IMG/VR virus record: IMGVR_UViG_3300025138_000171
Location: 1 to 33,595 of that record
Length of the DNA: 33,595 nucleotides
Reading direction: 5' to 3' (one strand)
Origin: a virus
Within the stretch, counting starts at the first letter, position 1, and each line of letters opens with the position of its first letter. The position numbers and the translations under genes were made by a program. The notes under the pieces were generated by a model. The model did no database searches. It had not been told where the DNA came from and saw only the letters and a list, made by a program, of their open reading frames with translations. Positions 3,833-33,595 of this stretch are shown in pieces.

Positions 3833-3863
3833 AAAAAAAGCCCCGCTGCCGAAGCAGCGAGGC
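3833..3863 (-). terminator. Rho-independent terminator, leftward
   Basis: Read on the minus strand this is GCCTCGCTGC, loop TTCG, GCAGCGGGGC, then T7. The stem has ten pairs including one G-U, closed by a UUCG tetraloop. It lies 14 bases past the stop of the first leftward gene and so would end or attenuate transcription before the rest of the arm. A second G/C-rich stem (GCCCC and GGGGC, about 3778-3792) lies further downstream. Confidence 0.88.
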
Positions 3864-3876
3864 TAGTTGGGAGAGA

Positions 3877-4290
3877 TTATGAAGCTTGTTTCTTAGCTTG
3901 GTAAGCTGCCTCAAGCTTGTCAATGGTCTTTGCGTCAGGCTCATTGTTAGCATGTGTCTCAGGGAATAGCTGTTGAGAAGCTTGTGTGAGATTTGTCTTG
4001 AGTAACTCGTTGCACTCAAGCTGTGACTGCTGCCATTCAATGTCACGATTGCGTTGTAGTATCTTGTCGTTATCGAGTATTACACCGTGTTCTTTGTGTT
4101 CGATGTAGTCGTTCAAGTTCTGATCCTCAAGCTCTTGAATCTTAGAGAGTTTGCTGTTTGTGTTCCAGTCAATGTCGTTAAGAAACTTATTGATGAAATA
4201 CTGAAGTGTTGATTTGTGTGTCCGATCAGAAAGTGTGAAGACACGATTGAGGTCTTGTGCGAAACCGTTTTTGTTTGATTGCTTAGTCAT
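3877..4290 (-). CDS. First leftward gene, unknown helical protein
   Basis: A 137-residue hydrophilic, Gln/Asn-rich, mostly helical protein without membrane segments, cysteine motifs or a family I recognise. The middle reads KLSKIQELEDQNLNDYIEHK and the C-terminus KTIDKLEAAYQAKKQAS. The start at 4290 is fixed by AAGGAGAACTAAG immediately upstream. Position is its most telling feature: it is the first gene leaving the origin-like region, its leader would contain the large branched hairpin (4307-4473), and a strong terminator follows its stop. It may therefore be made at different levels or times from the rest of the arm. Confidence 0.7.
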   Translation of the reverse strand: MTKQSNKNGFAQDLNRVFTLSDRTHKSTLQYFINKFLNDIDWNTNSKLSKIQELEDQNLNDYIEHKEHGVILDNDKILQRNRDIEWQQSQLECNELLKTNLTQASQQLFPETHANNEPDAKTIDKLEAAYQAKKQAS

Positions 4291-4306
4291 CTTAGTTCTC
4301 CTTTGT

Positions 4307-4473
4307 GATACCGAGACCCTTCTCGGCTTATGCCCCATCCAGATCATGGCTGGAATAGAAAAGCAAGGGCGAGGCAAGGCCGAGTGCATTTACCCTTGCT
4401 ACTCGCTAACAGCGAGGGTTTCTATTCCAGTTATGATGTGGATAATGGGGCTTGCCGAGAGGGGATTGGTATC
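4307..4473. other. Large branched inverted repeat, candidate origin or structured leader
   Basis: Two arms of about 55 bases pair imperfectly over some 40 positions: GATACC/GGTATC (4307, 4468), TCTCGGC/GCCGAGA (4321, 4454), GCCCCAT/ATGGGGC (4332, 4445), ATCAT/ATGAT (4343, 4433) and a perfect 12-pair CTGGAATAGAAA helix (4350, 4419). Two further stems fill the apex: GCAAGGG/CCCTTGC (4363, 4393) and CTCGCT-AAC-AGCGAG (4402-4416), making a multi-branched fold. A competing hairpin, CCGAGA-CCCT-TCTCGG (4311-4326), would open part of the outer stem. A perfect DnaA box lies in the right arm. The function, as DNA origin, leader RNA or RNase III target, is inference. Confidence 0.75.
4437..4445 (-). 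other. DnaA box, perfect consensus
   Basis: TTATCCACA on the minus strand matches the bacterial DnaA consensus exactly. It lies in the right arm of the large inverted repeat, in the only long non-coding gap of the genome. With no phage polymerase or helicase seen, use of host DnaA is plausible. A nine-base match alone can occur by chance. Confidence 0.5.
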
Positions 4474-4798
4474 TCTGCAACAAAGGAGGACTGTAGATGA
4501 CTAGCAATCAAGTACAAAAGCGAGTGTAGTGCGAGGCATCAAGCGTGGCTTCACACTTGCTGATTGTTGTTTATTGGTGCTGTGTATTTCGTGAAAATAC
4601 CCCCGTGTCTTGCGCGTGTTTCACTGCCCGATGTAACGTCCGTCAGTGATGGGATCATCAGATCACATCGCTGTCGCAACGGCCATCTAGGGCGTGAGTA
4701 TGCCACGCGCATTGCCTTGTTGCTGCGATATGTTGCAACGAGACAGTCGATGCTACCCCTAGCAATCGACAAGCTTGTGGTTAATGACAAGGTGTGTA

Positions 4799-4811
4799 AA
4801 TTGTGCGGTTG
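4799..4811 (+). promoter_or_regulatory. TTGTGCG motif, copy 1 (before small terminase)
   Basis: TAAATTGTGCGGTTG lies 62 bases before the small terminase start. The same core recurs before the gp7.3/portal genes, before the major capsid gene and before the tail fibre gene. Here it runs directly into the TTGACA of a promoter-like sequence. Confidence 0.4.
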
Positions 4812-4838
4812 ACAAGCCGAGAGAAAGTGGCTGATAGT
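4809..4838 (+). promoter_or_regulatory. Possible rightward promoter for the structural arm
   Basis: TTGACA (4809-4814) is followed after 18 bases by GATAGT (4833-4838), matching 6 of 6 and 4 of 6 consensus positions. A start near 4846 would leave a leader of about 17 bases with a G-rich ribosome site before the small terminase gene. It is the first plausible promoter for the whole rightward arm. Confidence 0.4.
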
Positions 4839-4862
4839 GGGGGGGAACACAAGGGGGGGCAG

Positions 4863-5234
4863 ATGACCGAGATTGTGAAGCTTACCGATAAACAGACTGC
4901 ATTGGTGGATACACTTGTAGCAACAGGCTGTAGCATAACAGAAGCAGCAAAGCTTGCCGGATATGCTGAAGGTGAATCCGGTAGAGTAAGTGCCAGCAAG
5001 GCTTTGCGGACAGGACATGTCCAGCAGTACATGATGCAACGGATAGGTGAGAGTATGGGCCTCAATGCTACGGTGGCTGCGGCTAAGATGGTGAGGTTAG
5101 CATCGGGAGCTAAGAGTGAGTATGTACAGCTTGAAGCTAGCAAAGACATCTTGGACAGGGCTGGCTTCAAGGCTCCCGACAAGCATATGCACTTGCATGC
5201 TGGCGATATTAGCGTGTCCATAGACCTTGCGTAA
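4863..5234 (+). CDS. terS: Terminase small subunit
   Basis: A 123-residue protein with the typical opening of small terminases: LTDKQTALVDTLVATGCSIT, EAAKLAGYAEG and later ASKALRTGHVQQYM. This N-terminal helix-turn-helix binds phage DNA at packaging start and hands it to the large subunit. The C-terminus (KHMHLHAGDISVSIDLA) is where oligomer and large-subunit contacts lie in relatives. The start at 4863 is chosen over an in-frame upstream codon (4803) because a G7 run sits just before it and the domain begins there. It is the first gene of the rightward arm; the large subunit lies 1.7 kb downstream, beyond a run of small genes, which is an unusual separation. Confidence 0.78.
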   Translation: MTEIVKLTDKQTALVDTLVATGCSITEAAKLAGYAEGESGRVSASKALRTGHVQQYMMQRIGESMGLNATVAAAKMVRLASGAKSEYVQLEASKDILDRAGFKAPDKHMHLHAGDISVSIDLA

Positions 5235-32640: not shown

Positions 32641-33267
32641 CTATGCAGTTAGATCAAGCTTCTTTTGTTGTAGTGATGAGAGCATCAACTCTCTACGTCT
32701 AAGTCTCCACTTGATATGCTTGTGAAACTCTGAGTATGCAGGCCAGAAAGTGGTAGTCTCGGACACCTGCTTGATAGCGTACTTAACTATGTCGGCTGGA
32801 TAGACTGACAGTTCATTAGCTATAGCTTGTATTCGCATTGCGTGATCGTCCGATGACTCACCTGCTGGCTTCACCACCAGCGCAGCCAGCAGCGTGAGGT
32901 CATCGACTAACATTTCTTTAGGCATGGGAACCATAGCTTGCATAACTGTAGCTATACATTTGTTTACGTCATCTACTGATGTTGATTCTACTCTGTAGCC
33001 ACTGACAATAATATCTACGCCATCATCCTTGAAGCTACTGCGACTAATCTCTACTACCTTGCAGCCTGTTGTGCATTCTAGCGAAGTGAGAAGCAGACTG
33101 TCGACTCTGGCTGGATTGTTTACCTGTAGCATTCGATCCAGACCTGCCTGTATTTGATCGCCACTCAATATGATTTGAACACCAGTATCTGTAGGCTCTG
33201 TCGAAGGACGCAAATTTTTTGCCTGTTGCTTGATGGTAGTTAACGAACTTATCTGCTTGAGCGACAT
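32641..33267 (-). CDS. Phage protein with WP-x-x-x-E motif, downstream of O-like gene
   Basis: A 208-residue protein. The C-terminal half (VDDLTLLAALVVKPAGESSD, IQAIANELSVYPADIVKYAI, TTTFWPAYSEFHKHIKWRLR, RRELML) is a helical module found in many phage proteins near replication genes; the 'L-x-x-YPADIV-x-x-A ... FWP-x-x-x-EF' pattern is diagnostic of it though not of a known activity. Lambda-like order (O-like gene, then this) suggests a P-like helicase loader, but I see no sequence support for that. The start at 33267 has a strong AAGGAGG nine bases upstream, and so the first 75 codons overlap the end of the O-like gene. An internal ATG (33132) is the alternative. Confidence 0.7.
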   Translation of the reverse strand: MSLKQISSLTTIKQQAKNLRPSTEPTDTGVQIILSGDQIQAGLDRMLQVNNPARVDSLLLTSLECTTGCKVVEISRSSFKDDGVDIIVSGYRVESTSVDDVNKCIATVMQAMVPMPKEMLVDDLTLLAALVVKPAGESSDDHAMRIQAIANELSVYPADIVKYAIKQVSETTTFWPAYSEFHKHIKWRLRRRELMLSSLQQKKLDLTA

Positions 33268-33595
33268 GATCTATAGCCTCCTTGTGTTTAGCATCTATGG
33301 ATTTGCAAAGGTCATCGCTTGGAACCCATCCATCTGGAACCTGACCCTTTGTATTCTTTGTTTCCTTATTGGTTATTGATAGGTTAGTGTTGCTGTCTGC
33401 AACAGAGGTGTTGCTCTCTGCAATAGGGGTGTTGCAGTGTGCAATATCTTTTGGGAATATTATGTATCGTGTTGACTTGCCTGTGTGTCCACGATCTCTA
33501 GTTAGATAGCCGTGATCTTCCAGCCAGTGCAGCTTGCGCGTTACTGTAGCTACAGACATAGCAGTACGTTGTGATAGTCGTCTGAGACTAGGCCA
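33044..33595 (-). CDS. O-like helix-turn-helix replication protein, C-terminal part (begins at left end)
   Basis: The same gene as at 1-267, entering from the join. Within this piece are the recognition helix and wing (SVATVTRKLHWLEDHGYLTR), a variable Asn/Ser/Thr linker with an imperfect repeat (IAESNTSVADSNT), then a second domain PDGWVPSDDLCKSIDAKHKE, ADKFVNYHQATGKKFASFDR, AYRYWCSNHIEW that matches the DnaT-like C-terminal domain of phage replication proteins, where it handles single-stranded DNA and helicase loading. The last 40 residues are Ser/Gln/Arg-rich. The final 224 bases overlap the next gene in another frame. Confidence 0.78.
   Translation of the reverse strand, partial: WPSLRRLSQRTAMSVATVTRKLHWLEDHGYLTRDRGHTGKSTRYIIFPKDIAHCNTPIAESNTSVADSNTNLSITNKETKNTKGQVPDGWVPSDDLCKSIDAKHKEAIDHVAQADKFVNYHQATGKKFASFDRAYRYWCSNHIEWRSNTGRSGSNATGKQSSQSRQSASHFARMHNRLQGSRD
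33440..33595. repeat. Right copy of terminal redundancy
   Basis: Repeats bases 1-156 in the same orientation with two mismatches. In the encoded replication protein the first difference is silent (CGC versus CGA, Arg) and the second changes Ser (AGC, left) to Arg (AGA, right) next to the recognition helix. Confidence 0.93.

Follow-up and report, generated by a model that had tools for sequence, protein, structure and literature searches.

The cis-encoded antisense RNAs of phages and plasmids, such as CopA, Sok and RNA I, are short hairpins that pair with their target. Long palindromes and quasi-palindromes in bacterial DNA are substrates of SbcCD, and are unstable and transient. GOLLD and ROOL are known from phages. 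With OLE, they represent the large structured RNAs of phages and bacteria (PMC12286853). In eukaryotes, long hairpin RNAs (hpRNAs), for example those of Drosophila, arise where an inverted gene copy folds into a long, imperfect hairpin with arms matching that gene (PMC10317233).

The locus described here lies in a viral DNA of 33,595 nucleotides (IMG/VR record IMGVR_UViG_3300025138_000171; the whole stretch is referred to as the window), and it resembles each of these systems in part. Like bacterial long palindromes it is an imperfect inverted repeat of hundreds of bp but, unlike them, it is conserved over deep divergence and its pairing is strand-specific. It shares with hpRNAs the inverted gene copy forming a long hairpin with gene-matching arms; hpRNA loci, however, feed RNA interference, a pathway that bacteria lack, whereas in this locus one arm is the gene itself, tracked over long evolution by the mirror arm. 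As with CopA, Sok and RNA I, its + strand would be fully antisense to a translation start and highly folded, but in this case the antisense would be closed by a separate mirror arm as long as the gene at most, and no promoter is visible. With GOLLD, ROOL and OLE it has in common that it is a very large, conserved, structured non-coding RNA candidate, yet where those adopt ornate multi-helix folds, it forms a rod-like stem made of a gene and its mirror. Covariance models from Rfam (GOLLD, ROOL, OLE and others) matched neither the window nor any of 11 related loci, and a known RNA family was rejected on this basis. Searches of the accessible libraries and open-access papers returned no described counterpart of a hairpin with arms of up to 600 bp that stays in register with a gene over large divergence and is paired on the antisense strand only, and paper searches gave nothing relevant on the hairpin feature or on phage Hodr.

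Both terminase subunits of the window phage, TerL and TerS, are closest to those of Pelagibacter phage EXVC031P Hodr (64% identity in each case), and the phage also encodes Erf, YqaJ and an Hjc-like resolvase. The window ends (1-267 and 33044-33595) carry near-identical stretches of an HTH/O-like gene (SLSRLSQRT versus SLRRLSQRT), a sequence similarity that suggests a circular or terminally redundant genome. The genes and signals around the hairpin are as follows.

3839-3864, - strand: predicted strong intrinsic terminator directly after the leftward gene; it lies inside the arm in giant relatives
3877-4290, - strand: divergent (leftward) gene mirrored by the hairpin, 137 aa, predicted four-helix alpha-hairpin fold (model pLDDT 86)
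4297-4305, - strand: Shine-Dalgarno sequence of the leftward gene, within the left arm, from the sequence
4809-4838, + strand: sigma-70-type promoter (TTGACA-18-GATAGT) serving the rightward late genes, from the sequence and relatives
4863-5234, + strand: terminase small subunit gene (terS), immediately right of the hairpin; 64% identity to its Hodr counterpart, itself a match to PHROGs terminase small subunit families

The leftward-gene protein matched no Pfam or PHROGs family and gave no significant fold match, with T4 UvsY appearing weakly. The leftward genes of the relatives form families with no detectable similarity in sequence (hhalign probability 0.5%, alignments A5 and A6), and the two families modelled have the same predicted four-helix layout (pLDDT 86). 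Between the terS promoter and terS, at 4841-4860, lies a conserved G-rich stretch, GGGGGGGAACACAAGGGGGGG, which is found upstream of terS in most relatives and is possibly a packaging or regulatory site.

A preliminary description of the window had reported a branched inverted repeat at 4307-4473 with two apical hairpins and a small competing hairpin, and had proposed folding both strands. Folded in this way, the segment gave -103.1 kcal/mol (z -11.0) as + strand and -85.4 kcal/mol (z -10.4) as - strand, with no shuffle equally stable in either case; both apical hairpins and the competing hairpin (about 4311-4326) are present, and the repeat itself proved to be about twice the reported length. 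Strand-neutral self-alignment extended the arms outward through the Shine-Dalgarno sequence and start codon and about 22 codons into the leftward gene. The parts of the extended palindrome are listed below.

4224-4564, + strand: whole hairpin, defined by the self-alignment span; RNA fold of -202.5 kcal/mol, z -18.8
4224-4362, + strand: left arm, antisense of the leftward gene's Shine-Dalgarno sequence, start codon and first ~22 codons, from pairing (inverted-repeat pairs I1, I2 and I5)
4327-4340, + strand: conserved stem motif, left side (CTTATGCCCCATCC), from the alignment of relatives and L059
4363-4399, + strand: apical hairpin A (GCAAGGG..CCCTTGC), from the fold and relatives
4402-4416, + strand: apical hairpin B (CTCGCTAACAGCGAG), from the fold
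4419-4564, + strand: right arm, a non-coding, G/U-shifted mirror copy of the gene start, from pairing and covariation
4440-4454, + strand: conserved stem motif, right side (GGATAATGGGGCTTG), from the alignment of relatives and L059; overlapped by a DnaA-box-like 9-mer
4480-4529, + strand: mirrored Shine-Dalgarno sequence and ATG with a 10-codon open frame, from the sequence; the coding unit is not conserved

This region is by far the most stable 200-base stretch in the window, and the full span is less stable as - strand (-159.0 kcal/mol) than as + strand. Its mismatches comprise 13 G.U versus 1 A.C. A second GC-rich fold, at 4560-4860, was not beyond shuffles (z -1.8). A translated mini-gene in the right arm was rejected, since relatives lose the frame or the ATG. 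The apex (4363-4416) is exchangeable: with outer arms similar, it takes either the short two-hairpin form or that of a highly conserved branched module of ~190 nt, which replaces apical hairpin A in relatives L004-L007 and L010-L017. Arms of two types are combined in L013, possibly a recombinant or a chimera. CGAAG outnumbers CTTCG by 34 to 10 on the hairpin region's + strand (near the apex in L068, L071, L078-L080, L085, L104 and L112); this recalls the GCGAAGC DNA mini-hairpin, which is very stable, or UUCG loops on the opposite strand.

The same layout recurs widely. A scan with TerS, from which 80 loci were taken of at least 586 matching, and a scan with the second family of leftward gene (80 further loci) gave 76 non-redundant relatives, and 65 of these have a palindrome beyond shuffles at the leftward gene. 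It spans the start codon in 58 of the 65 and there complements the overlapping gene's translation start, as a cis-antisense RNA would. Sizes range from ~50 bp centred on the start codon up to ~1.2-1.3 kb. In about 20 sampled relatives, the giants, arms of ~600 bp mirror the whole gene: the left arm contains the entire gene and its terminator, the right arm mostly stops within ~70 nt of the terS promoter, and 71-86% of gene bases pair with the right arm, with no codon position favoured. One of them, L059, is an inverted gene copy forming a hairpin of 1231 nt (-750.7 kcal/mol as + strand, -514 as - strand) with the whole gene in its left arm. In Hodr, a palindrome of different sequence and the same layout lies between a small leftward gene and terS and covers ~700 bp, with the start of the gene and the terS promoter inside it. 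Hodr is exceptional in kind, since small insertions and deletions, and hardly any substitutions, distinguish its two arms; it is thus neutral on strand preference. In Hodr (L020) and in L091/L095 the right arm covers the terS promoter and enters the terS coding sequence, so that two protein-coding starts are mutually complementary. The TerL-related phages MEP301, BcepC6B and Pmp11 arrange their genes differently at terS and lack a divergent gene of this kind. An assembly artefact was rejected, given the recurrence of the layout in dozens of independent contigs and in the Hodr isolate genome.

A search for covariation in relatives, which the preliminary description had also suggested, found the fold conserved and the arms co-evolving over deep divergence. 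Among close relatives of the window, 97.2% of cells are standard pairs, and two-sided changes occur at 16 pairs, where shuffles give 7.7 and slid controls no more than 5 (40 cells with such changes against 13.5 in shuffles). Over the 18 giants compared, gene positions that differ between two genomes are Watson-Crick-paired in both in 61-65% of cells, and unchanged positions in 68-70%; the partners here come from self-alignment, which favours pairing, and tests on close pairs, with the register checked by plain DNA alignment, therefore weigh more. In the pair L160/L173 there are 39 two-sided Watson-Crick-to-Watson-Crick changes, where chance alone would give ~9.5 both-changed pairs, and 28 of the 41-45 mismatches are shared, so the palindrome is older than the split. 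In five close pairs, 94 of 134 gene substitutions (~70%) are accompanied by a matching change in the paired base, compared to ~13% if the arms were independent. Gene changes in these pairs peak at codon position 3 (38/19/77), while changes in the right arm only do not (40/50/34). The position-3 peak in the gene, together with the matched partner changes, indicates that protein and pairing are both under selection. A recent inverted duplication awaiting decay was rejected, as mismatches are common to relatives and compensations postdate the split.

Co-evolution over the whole gene would also be expected if gene conversion or template switching between arms kept a DNA palindrome similar, while selection against structure in the leftward mRNA produced the strand bias as a side effect; the pair types that are depleted are indeed those stable on the - strand. 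Yet the compensations are isolated single positions rather than conversion tracts, the mismatches are old and randomly spread (dispersion 1.08), and conversion alone predicts as many G.U as A.C, which makes this explanation quite unlikely.

Far from being equal, these two mismatches differ sharply. Over the giants, the + strand has 8303 Watson-Crick pairs, 433 G.U and 47 A.C, along with 268 G.G and T.T versus 61 A.A and C.C, and 229 A.G/G.A versus 131 C.T/T.C. Recent one-sided changes gave 63 G.U versus 6 A.C, compared to 424:367 for the same classes in flanking DNA (Fisher p 8e-11). Tolerance of G.U is thus strand-specific, as in a structured RNA and, because the G.U excess on the + strand is absent in the flanks, the folding strand is the + strand, antisense to the leftward gene. 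A genome-wide mutational strand bias behind the G.U excess was rejected by means of polarised flank substitutions. The + strand also folds better in 41 of 41 loci tested; control gene segments lean likewise, but this lean does not account for the bias at the level of pairs and substitutions. We are highly confident in a conserved + strand pairing that follows the gene.

These data bear directly on the preliminary proposal of a riboregulatory role. A conserved, covarying fold beside the ribosome site of the first gene keeps riboregulation a live option, but the version proposed, in which a leftward message would carry the fold, concerns the wrong strand, since mismatch types and substitutions favour the + strand. 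As a leader, a transcript begun to the right of the palindrome would hide its own ribosome site in the stem and be switched by a factor or RNase III. The ribosome site does lie within the stem in nearly all relatives and the - strand fold is stable too; the pairing, however, is maintained on the opposite strand, few outcomes are rarer than G.U on the - strand, and even the smallest palindromes, with the stem on the start codon, favour the + strand. We consider such a leader very unlikely.

The preserved strand could also act as DNA. A single-stranded DNA hairpin, formed when the + strand is exposed, for example as lagging-strand template of a rightward fork, might serve replication, recombination or packaging beside terS. 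What makes it the main rival is the ranking of tolerated mismatches: G.T stands about level with G.A, G.G and T.T, while A.C and C.C come last, a ranking that DNA stacking accounts for about as well as RNA does. The failure to find a promoter for a + RNA, the presence of Erf, YqaJ and the Hjc-like resolvase, and the proximity of terS are likewise in its favour. On the other hand, recent one-sided changes favour G.U beyond what DNA energies predict, and a DNA hairpin gives no reason for a stem that tracks the start codon or, in giants, the exact gene length up to the terminator. On balance a DNA hairpin appears unlikely, and the hairpin probably acts as RNA.

Another role at the DNA level, put forward in the preliminary description, was that of a replication origin recruiting host DnaA and the phage O-like protein. 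It drew on a perfect DnaA box in the right arm, which is indeed there:

4437-4445, - strand: TTATCCACA, single exact DnaA-box match, not conserved in relatives

This is the one strict box, and relaxed boxes show no excess over chance (4 versus 5.4 expected) and thus no cluster. The 9-mer belongs to the conserved stem motif, and there are relatives in which the stem is kept and the box is absent, its site reading TTTGGATGATGG in L004, L012 and L014 and CTCGGATAATGGG in L059. GC skew, which was to be checked for a switch, does change near the hairpin, but at the same point as the gene-direction switch, and so has no independent word on an origin. An origin defined by the DnaA box was rejected, the box being single and lost in relatives; even with skew and gene direction switching at the site, a coding-length stem that follows a gene is not an origin feature, and we regard origin function through host DnaA as highly improbable.

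For the hairpin as RNA, we tentatively propose (probability roughly 0.4) that a giant + strand hairpin RNA keeps an antisense closed on a built-in mimic. A rightward transcript would be made and would fold while emerging, its simplest source being late transcription that reads on through the early region, around the genome. Its left part would be the antisense of the gene's translation start, or of the whole gene, and its right part a non-coding imitation of the gene that would hold this antisense in a closed stem, where it could not pair with, and silence, the short leftward mRNA. As each G.U on the + strand is an A.C mismatch on the mRNA strand, the same sequence could give a folded antisense and a readable mRNA. 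Such a closed antisense would explain why the stem follows the gene start and, in giants, the full gene length, why there is a non-coding mirror arm, and why G.U is accepted on the + strand and not on the - strand, namely because the mRNA strand stays open. A scan of the + strand for terminators from position 28.0 kb across the junction to the hairpin gave none that was convincing. Left of the palindrome, 18 giants were searched for a rightward promoter that would belong to the antisense strand itself; no site recurred consistently among them and most scores did not exceed those of shuffles, so that the + transcript is a putative one. Against a closed antisense, a plain terminator would seem a simpler protection from antisense RNA, and the tendency of control gene segments to fold better as + strand also counts.

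Altogether, our analyses point to an undescribed kind of giant structured RNA. The chances are about even that it represents a new class of giant phage RNA, widespread in an abundant marine phage group, in which a gene and a non-coding mirror arm (up to full gene length) co-evolve and the antisense strand is always self-closed. This terS family occurs in hundreds of marine contigs, and since a cultured Pelagibacter phage belongs to it, direct testing is possible. If the hairpin is an RNA, it would give a compact genome a means of disarming antisense transcription or of making a giant double-stranded RNA, while constraining a protein gene at every codon position.
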